Of a stretch of DNA of 20,108 bases, positions 37-15,086 are shown piece by piece (the first letter of the stretch is position 1; every line of letters begins with the position of its first letter). The notes beneath the pieces are model-generated. The model had not been told where the DNA came from. It worked only from the letters and a program-made list of their open reading frames with translations, and did not search any database. Both the position numbers and the translations under genes were made by a program. The stretch spans positions 1 to 20,108 of the IMG/VR virus record IMGVR_UViG_3300020207_001472. One strand, 5' to 3'. Origin of the DNA: a virus.

Positions 37-453
37 TTATCTAAATAATCCAATTTTCTTACCGTCTTTTATTCTTTGGTCATATTCTTCTGGGCTTGAA
101 GGATACTGCCAACCCCACCAGGCACCAAATGCCATGAAGGAACCAGAATAAAGGACTGCTTTCCAATTTCCTGTAAATACAATCATTAAGATTAAAGCTA
201 ATGCCATAAATCCTAACATTCCATATTTTGCCTTTAAAGGAAATACTTTCTTTGTTTCCCAGTTTGTTAAAAATGGTCCAAAGATTTTGTGGCCATATAA
301 CCACTTGTGCATACGCTCAGAGCTTCTTGCGAAACAATAAGCGGAGAATACAGCCGGAATACTAAAAGGTATACCAGGCATTATAACACCTATGTATGCA
401 ATTCCTAATAATACAAATCCTGCCGCCATCCATAATAATTTTTTTAAGTTCAT
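37..453 (-). CDS. DUF454 (YbaN-like) inner-membrane protein
   Basis: A 138-aa small membrane protein. The N-terminal half has the DUF454/YbaN pattern: a first helix at about residues 7-25, then PGIPFSIPAVFSAYCFARSS (residues 26-45), then a conserved R-M-H-K-W-L and H-K-x-F-G-P stretch at about 47-60. Two more hydrophobic helices lie at about 78-94 and 99-115, and the tail is charged. The family is widespread in proteobacteria and its biochemical function is not established. Its ATG at 453 overlaps the stop of the preceding membrane-protein gene by 4 bases (ATGA), so it is probably translated by coupling. It ends a run of four genes coupled this way, after 5-aminolevulinate synthase and alternative oxidase. 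A role in the membrane linked to heme or respiration is a guess from position only. The family call is fairly sure. Confidence 0.82.
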   Translation of the reverse strand: MNLKKLLWMAAGFVLLGIAYIGVIMPGIPFSIPAVFSAYCFARSSERMHKWLYGHKIFGPFLTNWETKKVFPLKAKYGMLGFMALALILMIVFTGNWKAVLYSGSFMAFGAWWGWQYPSSPEEYDQRIKDGKKIGLFR

Positions 454-1274
454 ATTGGTCTTCTGTTTATAGTTGTAGTTAATCCACTACGTTGTTCTTC
501 AACTTCCATGTTCATAATTTGTTTTTCATCAACAAGAGGTTTCGTAGGGCGTTCACGGTCTCTTTTGAATGCTGCGGTTGATACAATCAACAACATAATC
601 GCAAGAGGGTCAAATACAAAGATGATAGTTAAGATAACCCAACGAACAGCATTGTCATACATAGACTCTGCTTCTTCACCGTATATCATATCAGCAATAT
701 ATTTTACAGGACCTAGTTCAGCTTCTTGTTCTAATTGTAATCGCTGAATAGGCATCTTCTGTTCATTTAATTCTACAATCTCTGCTACTAAAACATCAAT
801 TGCTTCATTGATTTCATTTCTCTCTGTGGTCTGAACTCTGTTGACATAATTACGATCTTCAGGTTTACTTGTTTGTAAAACATAATCTAAGTTTTCCAAT
901 CTTCCTGTGAGATTGTCTAATTGTAATTGTTTACCGTCTAATCTTTTATCAACAATACTTGCTTCGAGTGAATAAGTATCTCCAGTCACCGCGCTGTCAA
1001 TATGAGCTTTAGATAAGAAACCAAATATTCCCATACTTGTAATTAACATAAGTACCACGACAGCGGTGGTGAAATATGCTCGGACCAAATTATTGATTCT
1101 GTCCCATTCATAATGGAGCCAGGCTGCAGATACAACTTTACCAAATTCTAATATACTTGCCATGAAAGCAATTGATAAAGCAGCACCACTGAATATTGTC
1201 ATCAGTCCTATAATACTAAAATACGCAGCTGTTCCTGCGAGTGATAATGATGTAAATAGTGTTAACCATTTCAT
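450..1274 (-). CDS. Phage membrane protein, four helices with a coiled-coil loop
   Basis: A 274-aa protein whose function I do not recognise, although similar proteins recur in marine T4-like phages. Hydrophobic helices lie at about residues 3-25, 28-50, 64-85 and 210-235. Between helices 3 and 4 is a long charged segment (about 95-190), rich in Leu, Glu and Gln and likely coiled coil. The last helix contains FDPLAIMLLIV, and the cytosolic-looking tail is charged. I chose the ATG at 1274 over the TTG 15 bases upstream because GGAGG sits 8 bases before the ATG. The ATG also forms an ATGA overlap with the alternative oxidase stop. The downstream DUF454 gene is joined in the same way. The layout of short helices plus a long coiled loop could suit a membrane scaffold or sensor, but nothing shows catalysis. 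Confidence 0.8.
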   Translation of the reverse strand: MKWLTLFTSLSLAGTAAYFSIIGLMTIFSGAALSIAFMASILEFGKVVSAAWLHYEWDRINNLVRAYFTTAVVVLMLITSMGIFGFLSKAHIDSAVTGDTYSLEASIVDKRLDGKQLQLDNLTGRLENLDYVLQTSKPEDRNYVNRVQTTERNEINEAIDVLVAEIVELNEQKMPIQRLQLEQEAELGPVKYIADMIYGEEAESMYDNAVRWVILTIIFVFDPLAIMLLIVSTAAFKRDRERPTKPLVDEKQIMNMEVEEQRSGLTTTINRRPI

Positions 1275-1834
1275 TGTGAGTACCTCCAATTCACATCACT
1301 GTGTTTTTGTTCGTCTGCACGGACATGTAATATCATATCTCTTAAAGTTGCGTCATTGTCCATTGTATAATAATTTATTGCTAATCTCGGTGCAGGCGGA
1401 TTAGGTAATATTCCTTTGTCTATTAATTTTATATATTCCGTATAACTCTTAACTGCTTCTTCCTCAAAGTAATGTACCATACGATGAGCGGTCTTTGGAA
1501 AGAATACATACATTAGGAAATAAAAATTCCAAAAGATACCTTGAGCTGCTAATATTAATAGCCTTTCAAATAAATTTGGTTTCGCGATTTCAATAAAGAA
1601 CATTAAATGCATTCTTTCGTTTTCAGCTTCTTCAAGCAATTCGCGAATCATTGGTCCATATCCTGTTTTCATTTGTCTTAAACTTCTCAAATGAACCCAC
1701 ATACCTGCGACCATACCTGGGACACCTGCTATAGTTTCTAGAACTACTGCTCTATGTCCATATCTTTTAGCAAAGAATGTATCGGCAAAGAACCGAAAAA
1801 ACTTTGTCATACTTCTTGCTACGGTATCCTTCAT
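1271..1834 (-). CDS. aox: Alternative oxidase (ubiquinol:oxygen oxidoreductase)
   Basis: A 187-aa non-heme diiron oxidase that passes electrons from ubiquinol to oxygen without proton pumping, bypassing heme-containing bc1 and terminal oxidases. All diiron ligands are visible: E33 in [12 protein letters not shown]73 and H76 in ENERMH, one of E124-E126 in [14 protein letters not shown], and E175 and H178 in [11 protein letters not shown]. The family-typical [10 protein letters not shown] and the conserved tyrosine near residue 131 are present. The two hydrophobic stretches (about 34-48 and 91-112) suit an interfacial membrane protein. It is shorter at the N terminus than mitochondrial enzymes but keeps the whole catalytic four-helix core. 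Its start forms an ATGA overlap with the 5-aminolevulinate synthase stop, and the nearest GGAG is about 15 bases upstream, so coupled translation is likely. Related plastoquinol oxidases (PTOX) are known in cyanophages. This copy sits beside a heme-pathway gene instead of photosynthesis genes. Confidence 0.93.
1283..1287 (-). promoter_or_regulatory. Ribosome binding site that fixes the start at 1274
   Basis: GGAGG on the minus strand lies 8 bases before the ATG at 1274 and inside the last codons of the alternative oxidase gene. It argues against the longer TTG-initiated reading frame beginning at 1289, which would place this GGAGG inside the coding region. Confidence 0.75.
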
Positions 1835-3033
1835 TCGTATTCTTTAAACGTCTCCTTCAACGCAATTACTAAATCGTCCATCATACCATTGGTGTGTAAT
1901 GGAGTTGGTGTAATTCTAAGCCGCTCTGTACCCACATCGACTGTTGGATAATTAATTGGCTGAATATAAATTCCATACTCATTTAATAACCTATCTGACA
2001 TTACTTTACATTTCTTTGCATCTCGTACCATTACAGGTAAGATATGAGTACACGCTTTATCATGTATCTCAATATTATTTTCAATCAACAAAGATTTTAA
2101 TGTTGCTGCTCGTTCTTGATGTTGTTCTCTAAGTTCGTTGTGTTCTTTTAACCATCTTATTGAAGCAATTGCTCCTGCGCACATAACAGGACTTAAAGAA
2201 GTTGTAAAAATAAATCCTGAGGCTACGGAGCGAATGGCATCGAGAACAATACTATCACCAGCAATATAACCACCGTGACAACCAAACGCCTTTCCAAGTG
2301 TTCCATTTATAATATCTACTCTATCAGAGAGTCCTAACTTTTCGCAGTACCCAGCTCCTGTGTCACCATAAAGTCCTACTGCATGAACTTCATCAATATA
2401 TGTCATTGCTCCATAAGCATCAGCAAGATCACATATTTGTTCGATTGGTGCAACATCTCCATCCATACTATATACGCTTTCAAATACAACACATGGAACT
2501 TGATTATTCATTTTAGCTGTTTGTAAGGCAAGCTCAAGTTCGTCCATGTTATTGTGTTCCCAAATAATCTTATCAGCTCTTGAATGTTTAATACCCATAA
2601 TCATAGAAGCATGATTTTTATTGTCGGATATAAAACAGATATTTGGTATAATACGGCTCAGTGCAATTAACGTCCACTCATTAGCAACATATGCTGATGT
2701 AAATAATAAACCTTTTTCTTTTTTGTGGAGTTTTGCTAATGTTCTTTCAAGAGTGACATGATAATGAGAGGTACCGCCAATATTACGTGTACCTCCACTA
2801 CCACTTCCTGTTTTTTCAAGTGCAGTTGCCATCGCATCGATGACATACTTGTTTTGTCCTTGACATAGGTAATCGTTAGAACACCAATTCACAATTGTCT
2901 TTGGTGAATACTTTGAATACCATGTTGCTTTAGGAAAGTTTCCCCTCTCCCTTACAATATCATTAAAGACTCTATATCGACCATCGTCTTTAAGTGAGTC
3001 AATTAAATCTTGAAAGATTTGTTTGTTTATCAT
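1831..3033 (-). CDS. hemA: 5-aminolevulinate synthase (Shemin pathway)
   Basis: A 400-aa pyridoxal-phosphate enzyme that condenses glycine with succinyl-CoA to make 5-aminolevulinate, the first committed step of tetrapyrrole (heme, corrin) synthesis by the C4 route. The length matches alphaproteobacterial enzymes. Visible features are SNDYLCQGQ (52-60), the glycine-rich [17 protein letters not shown] (76-92), H141 for cofactor stacking, D214 and H217 in YIDEVHAVG, the Schiff-base lysine K248 in GTLGKAFG, and ERLRITPTP near residues 370-378. The sequence TRNIGGT favours this enzyme over the related 2-amino-3-ketobutyrate CoA ligase and 8-amino-7-oxononanoate synthase. The start has AAGG 7 bases upstream, overlapping the NrdB stop codon. 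It is the first of four genes joined by ATGA overlaps. Phage copies of this gene have been reported from aquatic sequences as I recall, and they point to alphaproteobacterial hosts. No active-site residue appears lost. Confidence 0.93.
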
Positions 3034-3042
3034 ATCTACGCC

Positions 3043-4251
3043 TTAAGCTGCGTAGGCATCATCCCATTTTCCGGATAAACCAGCAACTTCATATTCCGTC
3101 ACACGGTTTTCAAAGAAGTTTGTATGGTCGGCACCATTCAGTACCCATTCTAACCAAGGTAATGGATTTTCTTTTACCTTGAAATTAGTTTTCATGCCTA
3201 ACTGAAGTAATCTTCTATCTGTTATATATCTTATATATTCTTTTACTTCGGATTTATCCAGACCTTCAATAGTACCTAACTCGTAAGCAAGGTCAATGAA
3301 CTTGTCTTCAAGGTCAACAATATCTTTTGACATTTCATAAATTTCGCGTTTGAAATCGTTGTCCACGACACGAGAATGTTCTTTTACAAATGCTTTGAAT
3401 AATTTAGAATTACCTTCAACGTGAATAGACTCGTCTCGTATACTCCACTCAACTACTTTACCCATACCTTTCATTTTACCGAAACGTTGAAAGTTAAGTA
3501 ACATAACGAAAGAAGCAAAGAGAGCAACACCTTCGTTAAATACAGATTTTGCTAAAGACAGACCAAGACCACGTAAAGTGTTTGTATCTGCTTGTCTCAT
3601 ATAATCAATCTTGTCTGCCATTTCAGAATACTCTAGGAATGCGTGGTATTCAGAATCAGGTAAACCTAAAGTTTCGTTTAACAATGCATACGCTCTTTGG
3701 TGAATACCTTCTCGAGCAGCAAACGAACCTAACATATTACGGACTTCGTTATTTTTAAACTTTGGAATAAATTGGTCATAATAGTTTTGACCTACAGCAA
3801 CATCAGACTGAGTAAACAATCTTAAGATGTTTGTAATATATTCTTTTTCAATCGGAGTGATCTTACCACCTTTCCAATCAGCTACATCTTCAGACAAGTC
3901 AAGTTCATCTTCAATCCAATGAGCTTTTTCATGTCTTGTTGTAATTTCAACAGCCCAAGGATAATGAAACGGTTTATATGTTTCAGAGAATTCCAATAAG
4001 CCACCTTGTTTCTTTACAAGTTTATCAGAGATTGCCATCAAATCATTATAGGTACCGATATGTTCATCGTTAATCCAAATCTGAGGTACAGATTTAACGG
4101 CTTTACCATTACTATGTTTTTGATAAAAAGCTAATCTTTGTTCTTCATCATCTAATAACACTTGAGTATAACCAAATCCATGTTGTGTAAACCATGCTTT
4201 TGCCTTTTCACAAAAAGGGCAATTTGATTTGGTATAAATTAGTACTTCCAT
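3043..4251 (-). CDS. nrdB: Glutaredoxin fused to class I ribonucleotide reductase beta subunit
   Basis: A 402-aa fusion. Residues 1 to about 80 are a glutaredoxin, with the dithiol site CPFC (C11, C14) and the cis-proline stretch KSVPQIWIN near 53-61. From about residue 100 on it is the NrdB diiron subunit. Ligands matching the E. coli set are D150 (FTQSD), E181 and H184 (EGIH), E240 (FNEG), and E274 and H277 (RDESIH). Y188, four residues after the histidine, is the expected radical tyrosine. The enzyme and NrdA reduce ribonucleotides to deoxyribonucleotides, and the attached glutaredoxin could re-reduce NrdA directly. The start is the ATG at 4251: AGGA precedes it by 6 bases and the glutaredoxin fold begins there. 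A longer frame to 4353 would overlap nrdA. The gap to nrdA is 19 bases. The fusion replaces the separate glutaredoxin found in most T4-like phages. Confidence 0.94.
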   Translation of the reverse strand: MEVLIYTKSNCPFCEKAKAWFTQHGFGYTQVLLDDEEQRLAFYQKHSNGKAVKSVPQIWINDEHIGTYNDLMAISDKLVKKQGGLLEFSETYKPFHYPWAVEITTRHEKAHWIEDELDLSEDVADWKGGKITPIEKEYITNILRLFTQSDVAVGQNYYDQFIPKFKNNEVRNMLGSFAAREGIHQRAYALLNETLGLPDSEYHAFLEYSEMADKIDYMRQADTNTLRGLGLSLAKSVFNEGVALFASFVMLLNFQRFGKMKGMGKVVEWSIRDESIHVEGNSKLFKAFVKEHSRVVDNDFKREIYEMSKDIVDLEDKFIDLAYELGTIEGLDKSEVKEYIRYITDRRLLQLGMKTNFKVKENPLPWLEWVLNGADHTNFFENRVTEYEVAGLSGKWDDAYAA

Positions 4252-4270: not shown

Positions 4271-6061
4271 TCATCCTTCGCAGGCGATGCACTCATCTTG
4301 TTGTTCCTCCGAGCCGTTGCTGAACTTAATTGAGTCTGGGTTAATAATATCATCTAACTTTTCACGTTCGATTTTTTGCGATACATTCTCTGCACGGTTA
4401 GATGTTTCTGTTCTTAAATAATATAGTCCTTTACATCCTTGTTTCCAAGCTTGGTAATGTACTTGATGTAAGGTTCTTTTATCAGCTCCAGCAGGGAAGA
4501 AGATATTTAGCGACTGACCTTGACATAGGTACTTTTGTCTTTCTCCTGCTAATCGTATAAGAGCTAACTGATTAATTTCAATTGCTGTTTGGAATACCTC
4601 TTTCACATGGTCATGTAAAAAATCTAGGTGTTGCACTGAACCACCGTTTGTAATAATCGTTGACCATACCTCTTCGGTATTCTTTCCAATTTTTTCCAAT
4701 TCTGCTTCGAGATATGGATTTTTATTTAGGTGAGATCCCACCCTTGTTCTAGAAGTAAATGCATTTGCTTTCCAAGGTTCAATACTTGGACTTGTATTTA
4801 CAATCATAGAACTATTTGCGTTTGGAGCAATAGCTAACATATGAGCGTTACGACGACCTGTTCCTTTCATATCAGGAGCTTCACCTCGACGCTTACCCAT
4901 TTCTAAAGTAGCTGCTAATGCTTCATCTTTAATATGTTTAAATATTGCTTCATTAATACCAACAGCCTGTTCGCAGTCAAATGGTACTGAATGCTTTTGT
5001 AGATACGAATGAAAACCCATCGCACCTAAACCTAATGATCTTTCTTGTTGTGCTGAATATCTTGCTTTGCTAATTTCGTCGCCTGCATGGTCAATAAAGA
5101 ACTGTAATACGTTATCTAAAAATACAGTTAAGTCTTTGACCATCGGAGTGCCAACCCATTCGTCATACTTTTCAAGGTTAACCGATGATAAACAACATAC
5201 TGCTGTTCTATCTTCAGAGGTCACTAAATGAATTTCATTACATAGGTTAGACCCCTTAATTGTTAAACCCTTTGCCTTTTGTGCATCAGGTAAAGCACGG
5301 TTTGCTGTATCAATAAAGTTAAGATACGGTTCACCTGTTCTATAACGTGTTTCTAAAATCAACTCCCATAGTTTACGAGCTGACATTGTATCACGGACTG
5401 ATTTGTCATTTGGGTCTAATAAGTTCCAATCAGAACCTGACTCAACCGCTTCCATAAATTTGTCTGTAATATTCACTGCGTGGTGTAAATTTAAATTCTT
5501 ACGGTTTACATCACCTGTAGGAATACGCATATTAATAAATTCTACAATGTCAGGATGGTCAACATCCATATATGCAGCATAAGAACCTTTTCTTGTTCTT
5601 CCTTGACGGTAAGCAACCATATCAGCATCAACAGTATGTAAGAACGGCATAGGTCCTGGAGCTTTCTTTGATACAGCACGAATATCAGACCAATGACCAC
5701 CTACTCCACCACCTTTAACAGATAGCCACCTAAGTTCTGCGGTATGGTCTATAAGACCGTCTAATGTGTCTGGAACATAAGTAAGAAAGCAGCTGATTGG
5801 TAATGCTTTAATTGGTTCTCCTTTAATTGGGGCATTTGATAAGACAGGAGATGCATACATAAACCAGCCTTTTGAAACGTAATCATAAATTCTCTGTGCA
5901 AGTTTTAAATTACCATTACAAAAAGCAACTGCTGCTCGAGCATATGCCATCTGAGGTGACCTTTCATCGTCACGACAATAGTAATCTTTTAACAATTTAA
6001 ATGATTGTTCAGAAAGATCCTTATCTCTCTTTGTTTCAATTTCAATACCTAAGTGCTGCAT
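4271..6061 (-). CDS. nrdA: Class I ribonucleotide reductase alpha subunit
   Basis: A 596-aa catalytic subunit. The active-site set is complete: C91 (LPISCF) and C289 (AVCCL) for the redox pair, N272, C274 and E276 in SNLCNEI for radical chemistry, and Y547-Y548 (LYYLRT) for radical transfer. The C-terminal tail carries a closely spaced CIAC pair (C591, C594), which would shuttle reducing power from glutaredoxin. It is much shorter than E. coli NrdA because the N-terminal ATP-cone allosteric domain is missing: the protein starts almost directly with the helical region. That predicts a lack of dATP feedback inhibition, useful to a phage that needs high dNTP pools. Its Shine-Dalgarno (TAAGGAG) overlaps the thyX stop codon, with 5 bases to the ATG. 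It sits between thyX and nrdB in one operon. Confidence 0.95.
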   Translation of the reverse strand: MQHLGIEIETKRDKDLSEQSFKLLKDYYCRDDERSPQMAYARAAVAFCNGNLKLAQRIYDYVSKGWFMYASPVLSNAPIKGEPIKALPISCFLTYVPDTLDGLIDHTAELRWLSVKGGGVGGHWSDIRAVSKKAPGPMPFLHTVDADMVAYRQGRTRKGSYAAYMDVDHPDIVEFINMRIPTGDVNRKNLNLHHAVNITDKFMEAVESGSDWNLLDPNDKSVRDTMSARKLWELILETRYRTGEPYLNFIDTANRALPDAQKAKGLTIKGSNLCNEIHLVTSEDRTAVCCLSSVNLEKYDEWVGTPMVKDLTVFLDNVLQFFIDHAGDEISKARYSAQQERSLGLGAMGFHSYLQKHSVPFDCEQAVGINEAIFKHIKDEALAATLEMGKRRGEAPDMKGTGRRNAHMLAIAPNANSSMIVNTSPSIEPWKANAFTSRTRVGSHLNKNPYLEAELEKIGKNTEEVWSTIITNGGSVQHLDFLHDHVKEVFQTAIEINQLALIRLAGERQKYLCQGQSLNIFFPAGADKRTLHQVHYQAWKQGCKGLYYLRTETSNRAENVSQKIEREKLDDIINPDSIKFSNGSEEQQDECIACEG

Positions 6062-9335: not shown

Positions 9336-9575
9336 TTAGTCTTCTTCGGTAGGAATCTCTTCAGCAACTTCAGGCGCTTCATCGGCAACAGGTTCGGCTG
9401 CTAGGTCAGCGGCCATAGTTTCTACTTCTGCTACTTCAGGGTTTTCCTGAGTCATGTCTTGATACTTTTGATTTAATGCAGCTCTTACTCGAGTTGTCAT
9501 TTCATCATCAAAAGCTTTCTTGAGGTTAAGTGGATTGTTATCCAACGCTTGCGCGATAATATCATTTACTGGCAT
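9336..9575 (-). CDS. Small acidic prohead-core-like protein (T4 gp67-like)
   Basis: A 79-aa protein. The first 40 residues form an amphipathic helix (DIIAQALDNNPLNLKKAFDD, residues 5-24, followed by R-V-R-A-A-L). The remainder is strongly acidic and rich in Glu, Ala and Pro. T4 gp67 (PIP) is also about 80 aa, with the same order of a helical N-terminal I-x-x-A...N...K-F...M...R pattern and an acidic tail. That protein is a prohead core component cut into internal peptides. The match is by recalled pattern and composition only. A TATAAATA late-promoter-like box lies 31 bases before its ATG, and its Shine-Dalgarno is TGGAGA. It separates the endolysin from the spanins, an unusual position for a head gene, so a lysis-related role is not excluded. 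Confidence 0.6.
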   Translation of the reverse strand: MPVNDIIAQALDNNPLNLKKAFDDEMTTRVRAALNQKYQDMTQENPEVAEVETMAADLAAEPVADEAPEVAEEIPTEED

Positions 9576-13358: not shown

Positions 13359-13638
13359 CTTTAGTATCGCAATTATGTCTTGATGCAAAGTTCGCCGCTG
13401 CCTCTCTATCATTAATTTTAGCAGTGAGTCCACCTTTTTCATCACCGAACTCAATTTTTTTAATATTACCTGTGTCAGGGTTTCTAACATAGACAACATA
13501 TTTCTTATCTCCACTTGAACGCTTTGGTTTATTTAATTCAGGTTCTTCGTCAAGTTCAATCATCGGAGTTTCTAAAGGAACGGTCACTCCTTCATATAGT
13601 CCGAAGTTTTCGTATTTCCAATCTGCTATCTTTTTCAT
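13267..13638 (-). CDS. DUF5872-like phage protein
   Basis: A 123-aa protein. After an N-terminal part of about 40 residues comes a well-known phage module: KKYVVYVRNPDTGNIKKIEF (residues 45-64), then F-G-D and FASRHNCDTKD...SAGYWACR, with cysteines at about residues 90 and 104. I recall this as DUF5872, found in many T4-like phages, alone or fused to other head proteins. Function is unknown. The start MKKIADWKYENFGLYEG could be a variant internal-head leader, with LYE then G as the cut site. Its ATG overlaps the stop of the ATP-grasp gene by one base (TAATG). The downstream cupin frame overlaps its 3' end. Confidence 0.78.
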   Translation of the reverse strand: MKKIADWKYENFGLYEGVTVPLETPMIELDEEPELNKPKRSSGDKKYVVYVRNPDTGNIKKIEFGDEKGGLTAKINDREAAANFASRHNCDTKDDKFSAGYWACRLPKYAKELGLKGGGDYFW

Positions 13639-15086
13639 TAGTGATCCGATGGGTCGTTTCTTGCTGTTTTGTTTGATAATATAAATCGCCTATTTGGATT
13701 CACAGCAACTTTAAATTTTGTCATTAACTTTCTATTCACTAACATCTCTGATGCGGTATCTTTTAAAGACAATCCAACTTCAGCAATATGCTTTTTATTA
13801 TTAAAGAATATTTCGCGCTCAATTACTGGTCTTTCATCAAATGCTTTTTGACCTCTCATTGGTTTTGAGATGTATAATATCTTATCTTCAAACTTGTATC
13901 CGTTCTTTTCCCAAGTAACTTTACCGTTTTTCATTTCCATTTTATCAACGTGCAACATACTTGCTTGTGCACTATTACCCGTATCAAACTTTGCACGGAC
14001 AGGATTCTTTTCCATACCTTTAAATATAATCGTTTCTATATATCCTGCTTCTTGTCTAAATACAGGCCTACGATTAACATCTTTAGCAAAGAATTTAATT
14101 ATTCTTTCTAATACTTCTTTATCTGTAATTTTACCTTGTCTCTCTTCAGTCCAAGGATCATATCCTTCAAAGTGAGAACGAATACCAGGTGAACCGTTTA
14201 CTTCCAAGATATAAGGTTTGCCGTCAACCATTGCGTGGTCAACTCCACAATACATTGCACCACTTGCACGAGCCGCTGCTTTAATTACAGCAATTTCTTT
14301 AGGTGATAATTTATATGGTTCTGTTGTTGCACCGAGGTGAACGTTATTTCTAAAGTCTTTGTTTTCCTTTTCACGAATCCTTTCTGCTGATGCCAATATT
14401 TTACCACCAATTACAAGGGTACGTATATCAGAATTCATTTCTTTAAATTCTTGTAATAACAAATCAGCGTTATATTTCCATAAAGCTTGACATACACCTT
14501 TGAGAGATGATTCACTGTCAACCTTCATAACACCAACACCTTGTGTACCTTTCAAGGTTTTTACAATAACAGGGAATTTACCACCGACTCTTTTATGCGC
14601 ATCTTGAATAGATTGTTCGTTTGATATAATTGATGTTTTTGGAATCGGAATATTGTTTCTTTCCATCATTAAAGCATTGGACATTTTGTTATCACAAACT
14701 AACATTGAATCCAAATCGTTGACAACTAAGAAACCAATATCTTGTAAAGAAGAAACCATTGATTGGGAGGATAAAGTCTCAATGGCTCCTGCTCTAACAA
14801 AGATAATTGAATTATGAATTTCTGCTTCGCAGTCGTTGTCTTTTCCGTCAATATTACGAATCTTTACAGAACCGATGTCAATATCAGAACCAGCAATCCA
14901 AGCTTTCTTAACATCAACAAAGTCGTATCGTATATCTCTTTTAGTACATACTTCTTCCATTAGGCCTGCGAAAGTTTTTTCACCTTCACCTGTACCTAAT
15001 ACAACACAATGTAATTCGTCAAAGCTTAGTTCAGAACTGGCTTCTTCCTCTAATAGGCGACTTCTGTATTCAGATATACTTTTCAT
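13638..15086 (-). CDS. RimK-type ATP-grasp ligase fused to retropepsin-like domain
   Basis: A 482-aa fusion. Residues about 125-335 are an ATP-grasp ligase close to RimK glutamate ligases: VIVKTLKGTQGVGV (173-186) for ATP binding, FRNNVHLG (245-252), D283, and metal ligands in EVNGSPGIR (295-303). Residues about 345-475 resemble the RimB/RimK-associated retropepsin-like protease: a catalytic-type DTG at 368-370, S-L-H-like contacts, then EVGLSLKD and a closing R-R-F-I-L-S. In bacteria RimK adds glutamates to ribosomal protein S6 and RimB trims them. Here both are one chain. The N terminus MKSISEYRSRLLEE looks like a capsid-targeting leader with an LxE cut site, which suggests packaging in the virion. 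The target is unknown. It has no clear Shine-Dalgarno. Confidence 0.85.
   Translation of the reverse strand: MKSISEYRSRLLEEEASSELSFDELHCVVLGTGEGEKTFAGLMEEVCTKRDIRYDFVDVKKAWIAGSDIDIGSVKIRNIDGKDNDCEAEIHNSIIFVRAGAIETLSSQSMVSSLQDIGFLVVNDLDSMLVCDNKMSNALMMERNNIPIPKTSIISNEQSIQDAHKRVGGKFPVIVKTLKGTQGVGVMKVDSESSLKGVCQALWKYNADLLLQEFKEMNSDIRTLVIGGKILASAERIREKENKDFRNNVHLGATTEPYKLSPKEIAVIKAAARASGAMYCGVDHAMVDGKPYILEVNGSPGIRSHFEGYDPWTEERQGKITDKEVLERIIKFFAKDVNRRPVFRQEAGYIETIIFKGMEKNPVRAKFDTGNSAQASMLHVDKMEMKNGKVTWEKNGYKFEDKILYISKPMRGQKAFDERPVIEREIFFNNKKHIAEVGLSLKDTASEMLVNRKLMTKFKVAVNPNRRFILSNKTARNDPSDH

Follow-up and report, generated by a model that had tools for sequence, protein, structure and literature searches.

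We analysed a 20,108-base fragment of viral DNA (IMG/VR record IMGVR_UViG_3300020207_001472, positions 1 to 20,108; hereafter the window), at one end of which four consecutive genes encode 5-aminolevulinate synthase (ALAS), an alternative oxidase (AOX), a membrane protein of 274 residues (M274) and a small membrane protein of the DUF454 family. The explanation that we prefer, with a probability of roughly 0.6, is that they belong to a T4-like phage metabolic operon of two modules, an ALAS–DUF454 pair and a separately acquired AOX, with M274 between them. The data extend to the identities, the motifs, the overlaps and the pairing; joint action of all four genes lies outside what they support. 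The genes are as follows.

1831..3033, minus strand: ALAS, 5-aminolevulinate synthase, 400 residues (TIGR01821, 562.1 bits; aligns with 2bwn and 7x98)
1271..1834, minus strand: AOX, alternative oxidase, 187 residues, a heme-free diiron quinol oxidase (PF01786, 245.3 bits, 7e-73)
450..1274, minus strand: M274, membrane protein of a phage family, 274 residues, with hydrophobic ends and a helical middle
37..453, minus strand: DUF454 (YbaN family), small membrane protein, 138 residues (PF04304, 93.3 bits, 1.3e-26)

Pairing of ALAS with DUF454

The TIGR01821 score of the window ALAS lies well above the equivalog cut-off of 338.55 bits, whereas the next best families, those of its sister acyltransferases (KBL, BioF and SPT), reach at most 311.9 bits and all stay below their own cut-offs. 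Over almost its whole length the protein can be aligned with R. capsulatus 2bwn and with 7x98, and these alignments show the NGTL-x-KA(F/Y)G motif, the lysine of which we take to be the pyridoxal phosphate lysine. Judging by its sequence, the window ALAS is very probably enzymatically active. A Cys-Pro pair, which forms the core of heme-regulatory motifs, is absent from its translation.

The DUF454 protein exceeds the gathering cut-off of PF04304 (35.1 bits). Against NF007818 it scores 49.4, the equivalog cut-off being 163, which makes it a member of the family and does not support it as a YbaN ortholog. Its model (pLDDT 79.7) has no match in the PDB at E 0.001, and the DUF454 profile matches no solved chain.

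IMG/VR was scanned with the AOX, with the ALAS and with a DUF454 alignment, and the genes around the best 80 loci of each scan (out of 190, 165 and at least 564 stretches, respectively) were mapped with profiles. The counts thus describe the nearest relatives of the window rather than all viral carriers; they refer to 80 contigs in the AOX scan, 79 distinct contigs in the ALAS scan and 80 loci in the DUF454 scan, and a gene is "in view" when it lies inside the stretch seen around the locus. DUF454 was in view in 67 of the 79 ALAS-scan contigs; in 64 it lies downstream of ALAS, with the strand shared. Of the 12 contigs that show no DUF454, eight (L105 among them) stop less than 1.1 kb past the ALAS concerned; the remaining four are L153, L156, L158 and L159, and L158 has a DUF454 gene at another place in its record.

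The reciprocal scan gave a similar result. ALAS was in view beside 61 of the 80 viral DUF454 genes, and every record longer than 31 kb among these loci has ALAS. When 16 of the 19 records with no ALAS in view were searched whole, ALAS was found only in a 280-kb record, the other 15 being 4–30 kb long; the remaining three contigs, of 8–15 kb, are cut near the cassette. Around the 38 closest DUF454 genes (at least 70% identical to that of the window), M274 precedes DUF454 in all 38, ALAS is in view in 35 and AOX in 10.

Because both order and strand vary (ALAS before DUF454, DUF454 before ALAS, or opposite strands), the pairing is not one frozen arrangement. Inserts between the two genes in relatives include Cpn10 (L013), a 2OG-Fe(II) oxygenase (L027), a Clp protease (L047) and an IscA-type Fe-S_biosyn protein (L131). 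In some DUF454-scan contigs, ALAS lies on the opposite strand, 1.6–4.4 kb away; in L292, L296, L297, L303, L304 and L314, an AlgH/YqgE-like and then an HNH-like gene (names given by eye) precede DUF454 and replace ALAS. An ALAS–DUF454 arrangement of the phage kind also occurs in five contigs placed in bacterial genome bins (L164–L168; Flavobacteriales, Neomarinimicrobiota, Rhodobacteraceae Water_Bin34). Since it is of the phage kind, and since three of these contigs carry primase or nrd genes, as phages do, they are probably phage.

The pair is missing from the AOX-only records that were searched. In the AOX scan, 56 contigs showed no ALAS in view; 23 of their records, 30–200 kb long, were searched whole, and neither ALAS nor DUF454 was found in any of the 23, although the same ALAS query matched 7 of 22 DUF454 records and hence works. 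In a collection of 50,697 annotated phage records, DUF454 has five matches, which by eye are bacterial sequence under phage names, and ALAS has 19, all below 60% identity, the annotated ones named KBL or BioF. From the absence of both genes from the AOX-only records and the few matches among annotated phages we conclude that DUF454 tracks ALAS and not AOX, and it seems not to be a gene of phages in general. On sequence and gene neighbourhood, ALAS and DUF454 probably form a functional pair.

Distribution of AOX and M274

The window AOX far exceeds the PF01786 cut-off of 22.7 bits. Its six iron-ligand positions (four Glu and two His, which presumably act as ligands here) align with those of the T. 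brucei AOX 3vv9 and lie in the motifs LET, NERMH, EEEA and ADE-x-x-H. Only a little less confidently than for ALAS, we expect from these features an active oxidase. The two enzymes had been named correctly in an earlier sequence-only reading of this DNA, as the family cut-offs and the aligned motifs attest, and its description of the other two products as membrane proteins, one of them DUF454, agrees with the PF04304 match and with several hydrophobic stretches in M274. The window AOX is near bacterial AOX, with up to 72% identity; the nearest cellular one found (72%) belongs to a 1.3-Mb gammaproteobacterial genome (L410, G728), where it adjoins a plastocyanin-like gene.

AOX relatives are encoded by 190 IMG/VR stretches. 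ALAS is in view in 24 and DUF454 in 22 of the 80 AOX-scan contigs, and AOX occurs in 12 of the 80 DUF454-scan loci. Thirty large ALAS records (33–280 kb) were also searched whole. Twenty-seven had been picked with no AOX in view, and none of them has AOX elsewhere; the other three (L056, L307 and L047) had been picked for the AOX in view, so that 3 of 30 is an unfair sample of AOX frequency and the set tests only for AOX hidden elsewhere in the 27. Heme oxygenase was present in 11 of these 30 records, compared with 0 of 8 AOX-only records. Among the annotated phage records, only C48C1 matches the window AOX at E 1e-5.

The control consisted of the 46 records longer than 7 kb (1.08 Mb) among 80 picked by terminase and fetched via a Pelagibacter phage, which may differ in lineage from the ALAS phages. 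None contains AOX; a positive control within the same set is missing, though the query matched bacteria. The ALAS scan alone, with AOX in view in 6 of 79 contigs, compares with 0 of 46 at p 0.08. For the close relatives of the window (10/38), p is 0.0002, a value that treats members of one clade as independent and on which we do not lean. A tally of 26 of 99 ALAS contigs with AOX (Fisher p 3e-5) was dropped, since 24 of the 26 had entered through the AOX scan.

A tree was built from 58 AOX sequences; its bootstrap has not settled, and 20 of its 55 inner branches are open. The window-type cassettes represented in it, L047 excepted, have AOX genes that form one supported clade (97/92, 8 rows). 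L047 has ALAS, AOX and M274 in the same order as the window, yet its AOX branches elsewhere. A further AOX lineage lies near ALAS in L133, L165 and L288, that of L307 stands apart, and in the L053 type AOX stands between nrdA and nrdB. By our reading of this tree, AOX would have joined ALAS phages at least four times, although losses could explain part of the pattern. Such repeated meetings are suggestive of a benefit; AOX is still a minority passenger. A functional tie between AOX and ALAS appears doubtful.

In some phages without ALAS, the genes beside AOX support a respiratory role. In L004 (8948–10570) and L008 (8933–10555), an iron-sulfur assembly gene is followed by an SdhB-type gene and then by AOX, with overlapping ends. 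The SdhB-type protein of both has Fer2_3 and 4Fe-4S domains in Pfam; the Pfam match of the assembly protein was tested in L004. The same SdhB-type cysteine motif, seen as a motif only, precedes AOX in L007 near position 9415, which brings the arrangement to 3 of the 80 AOX-scan contigs. A respiratory role of AOX becomes more likely because the SdhB-type gene overlaps it in L004 and L008, and it is possible that the gene set of these three contigs provides a phage succinate-to-oxygen route.

No Pfam or NCBIfam family reaches its cut-off with M274, nor does PHROGs offer one at E 0.1, and the protein's model (pLDDT 61.6) is of low confidence, too poor for a structure search. It is present in 29 of the 79 ALAS-scan contigs and in 40 of the 80 DUF454-scan loci, and several relatives keep a terminal tail of the GLTTTLNRRPI kind. 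Thirteen annotated phage records match it, from Pelagibacter phage Mosig (41%) to phages longer than 300 kb, and none of them matches ALAS; in Mosig, the only one whose neighbourhood was inspected, other genes surround it. By sequence and distribution, M274 is most likely a general phage membrane protein.

Proposed roles and competing explanations

In the two-module explanation, the phage ALAS would make 5-aminolevulinate (ALA) from glycine and succinyl-CoA, as suggested by its family and by published tests on another phage ALAS, and would raise ALA in the infected cell. DUF454, which is steadily paired with ALAS and whose family member in E. coli is controlled by Fur, may be its partner at the membrane in the handling of tetrapyrroles or of iron. 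As the second module, AOX is most likely a ubiquinol oxidase that turns oxygen into water with neither heme nor copper; going by its family and the aligned ligands, it would benefit the infected cell by keeping the quinone pool oxidised. M274 would be a wider-spread phage membrane protein that settled between the modules. We offer a more elaborate version tentatively: DUF454 would be an unrecognised membrane partner of ALA or heme synthesis, betrayed by its near-constant presence in phages that take over ALA synthesis, a subset of phages would add AOX so that respiration and the succinyl-CoA flux of the tricarboxylic acid cycle continue while heme is diverted, and a few would add an SdhB-type subunit, a phage-built route from succinate to oxygen.

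Several observations weigh against this explanation. AOX and ALAS are apart in most of the phages seen, as the 6 of 79 ALAS-scan contigs show. No DUF454 is present in the whole records of L153, L156 and L159, which are fragments of 12–32 kb, nor in the 15-kb contig L031/L105, despite 10.6 kb after one ALAS. In a mirror-tree comparison over 45 loci, the distances of DUF454 correlate best with those of ALAS (0.759, as opposed to 0.533–0.726 for five other genes), which speaks for the pair, but the distances of ALAS reach 0.766 with NrdA and 0.865 with spanin. As ALAS correlates with these two backbone genes as well as with DUF454 or better, the comparison shows no excess, and a co-transfer of the pair beyond common descent is unsupported. 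In bacteria, no ALAS was found within up to 8 kb on each side of 74 DUF454 loci, E. coli not being among them, and two class samples (the best 30 bacterial loci each) have mixed neighbours with few heme genes (NnrS in 3 of 125 and Sdh_cyt in 2 of 132 frames, among the top 25 families of each scan).

The contig L031/L105/L115 is unusual in its own right: it carries two different ALAS genes, 78% and 76% identical to that of the window, one of them with AOX and M274, and both gene duplication and an assembly join fit. Among the 99 neighbours of the best-matching bacterial DUF454 genes (20 of the 74 loci gave no gene call) there are nine HemN_C and six heme oxygenase genes; the six loci of the latter are Pseudoalteromonas by mutual identity, and the nine of the former are taken to be mainly Rhodobacteraceae. 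A heme neighbourhood of bacterial DUF454 is hence strong in the best-matching set and weak in the two class samples, and we did not retain it.

About evenly balanced is the possibility that AOX is a hitch-hiker. On this view the stretch after nrdAB is a favoured site for accessory genes; AOX and ALAS would be neighbours through their common landing site alone, with no functional coupling. Other inserts do occur between ALAS and DUF454 (L013, L027, L047 and L131), AOX is also found between nrdA and nrdB (L053, L056, L057, L062, L070 and L072), and no AOX turned up anywhere else in the 27 large ALAS records that show none near ALAS. However, ALAS phages have AOX genes from several parts of the tree (the window clade, L047, the L053 type, L133/L165/L288 and L307), albeit with many weak forks, and AOX is present in 10 of the 38 close relatives and in none of the terminase-picked records, in contigs that are not independent.

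A second explanation, which we consider somewhat improbable, concerns DUF454. It would be an iron-economy protein that offsets the iron load of ALAS-driven heme, NrdB, AOX and 2OG oxygenases and leaves the tetrapyrrole path untouched. The regulation of cellular family members is in keeping with it, as are the iron-related inserts that recur between ALAS and DUF454. In the portions of the sources available, ybaN is among the direct Fur targets of E. coli CFT073, and of the 35 core-genome operons in that regulon, 34 reportedly show the same regulation in MG1655 (PMC7157518); the gene also stands in a table that we take to list Fur targets common to nine strains (PMC10164565), and a DUF454 gene of Avibacterium is induced by iron restriction (PMC7970244). 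In the available part of a study of worm diets, an E. coli ybaN mutant is among the diets ascribed to low iron, which is suggestive only (PMC12706066). On the other hand, the AOX-only phages also carry an iron enzyme, yet all 23 records are without DUF454; because of this, DUF454 appears to track ALAS and not iron enzymes generally.

It is unlikely that AOX serves nucleotide supply instead of heme, its re-oxidation of quinol freeing the quinone-linked dihydroorotate dehydrogenase and the succinate oxidation of the host to work at full rate during phage DNA synthesis, which would account for its frequent place by nrdA, nrdB and thyX. AOX does adjoin nrd genes in window-type and L053-type phages, even standing between nrdA and nrdB, and follows nrdB by about 1.36 kb in the AOX-only L011, L012, L015, L019, L022, L030 and L037. 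However, L133, L165, L288 and L307 carry both AOX and ALAS and show no profiled nrd gene in view, and other AOX-only phages have AOX by clamp-loader (C48C1, as annotated), SbcCD-like (by eye) or SdhB-type genes. The link between quinone-linked dihydroorotate dehydrogenase and AOX is known from parasite biology.

Operon layout, known systems and significance

The four genes end a longer operon, and the window itself ends 36 bases past DUF454. Their overlaps and the two preceding genes are as follows.

1831..1834, minus strand: ATGA overlap of ALAS and AOX (DNA reads GAATGAAGG)
1271..1274, minus strand: ATGA overlap of AOX and M274 (DNA reads CAATGA)
450..453, minus strand: ATGA overlap of M274 and DUF454 (DNA reads ATATGA)
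3043..4251, minus strand: nrdB with an N-terminal glutaredoxin domain, start inferred at 4251 (PF00268 and PF00462)
4271..6061, minus strand: nrdA, upstream operon gene (PF02867)

The minus-strand order is spanin pair, unknown protein, primase, thyX, nrdA, nrdB, ALAS, AOX, M274 and DUF454. At each of the three overlaps, the downstream ATG and the upstream stop have four bases in common, exactly as the sequence-only reading had placed them, and its spacing of 3 to 19 bases among the preceding genes matches the coordinates with the nrdB start at 4251. Among the relatives that the AOX and ALAS scans gave, the window excluded, the same −4 overlap is found for ALAS/AOX in 12 of 20 contigs, for AOX/M274 in 11 of 21 and for M274/DUF454 in 6 of 39. 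Such overlaps are ordinary and partly kept, and they suggest co-translation of the four genes, which is likely from their layout, rather than a common function.

That reading had gone further and proposed the four genes as one functional unit, which holds in part. By the refuting condition that the reading had itself set, the unit fails, as the genes do not stay together in related phages as a fixed cassette: AOX is not in view in 73 of the 79 ALAS-scan contigs and is absent elsewhere in the 27 large ALAS records, and M274 is found in 13 other phage records without an ALAS match. What stands is that DUF454 follows ALAS in most ALAS contigs, that the order ALAS–M274–DUF454 is kept in the clade of the window and that, by our reading of the tree, AOX met ALAS more than once.

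We take the window for a T4-like phage. It is a virus record that also encodes lysozyme, the spanin pair and a head protein, and in cyanophage S-RSM4 the primase likewise adjoins nrdA and nrdB. The nearest primases among annotated phage records are those of Sinorhizobium phages (47%); neither they nor the nearest bacterial AOX (72%) fix the host. At 13638–15086 on the minus strand, the window encodes a 482-residue protein in which a RimK-like ATP-grasp domain is fused to a putative zinc-protease domain, which we presume to be RimB-like.

Phage-borne ALAS has been described before. In the parts of the work available, Wegner et al. (2024) report it as valaS in hemO-pcyA/X-valaS cassettes, show one enzyme to be active and, in a neck-protein tree, group valaS contigs with two isolated pelagiphages of myovirus form (PMC11480375); viral alaS is also named in the accessible part of PMC13390420. 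The window resembles this system in its ALAS, and heme oxygenase recurs in the large ALAS records mentioned above. However, a Pfam scan of 28 window proteins found neither hemO nor a bilin reductase, so that a hemO-pcyA/X-valaS cassette is not seen in this fragment, and the terms alternative oxidase, AOX, DUF454, nrd and ribonucleotide do not occur in the main text of PMC11480375 (figures and supplements lie outside this statement). A Rhodobacter-like bin that groups with phage ALAS in the available part of that paper may be a bin-placed phage contig of the L164–L168 kind.

Cyanophage PTOX is, like the window AOX, a phage-borne diiron quinol oxidase, and it lies in a presumed mobile cassette with another electron-transport gene (PMC3037559, as far as available); in the available text of PMC3037559 and PMC7472177, the phage oxidases mentioned are PTOX and a cited title. 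The window AOX differs from PTOX in that it matches no cyanophage at E 1e-5 among the 50,697 phage records and lies near bacterial AOX, and the 28 window proteins scanned with Pfam turned up no photosynthesis families; we do not count it as PTOX. Hurwitz et al. (2013) list sdh among marine viral carbon genes (PMC4053976); the word "oxidase" is absent from the part of that paper available, whereas L004 and L008 have an SdhB-type gene that overlaps AOX.

E. coli YbaN is of the same Pfam family as the window DUF454 and also a small membrane protein; it differs in that bacterial DUF454 has no ALAS nearby (the 74 loci above, E. coli not among them). E. coli makes ALA by the C5 path. Our search of the open literature, which judged most of the papers listed by title and left subscription papers, preprints, figures and supplements outside its scope, found no report of respiratory AOX or DUF454 in phages.

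DUF454 is a widespread family of unassigned function, and its near-constant partnership with ALAS in these phages, along with Fur control in E. coli, gives a testable lead to heme or iron. Furthermore, respiratory-type AOX is no rarity among phages, with relatives in 190 stretches of one viral collection, and viruses may thus open a heme-free path to oxygen in the bacteria that they infect.

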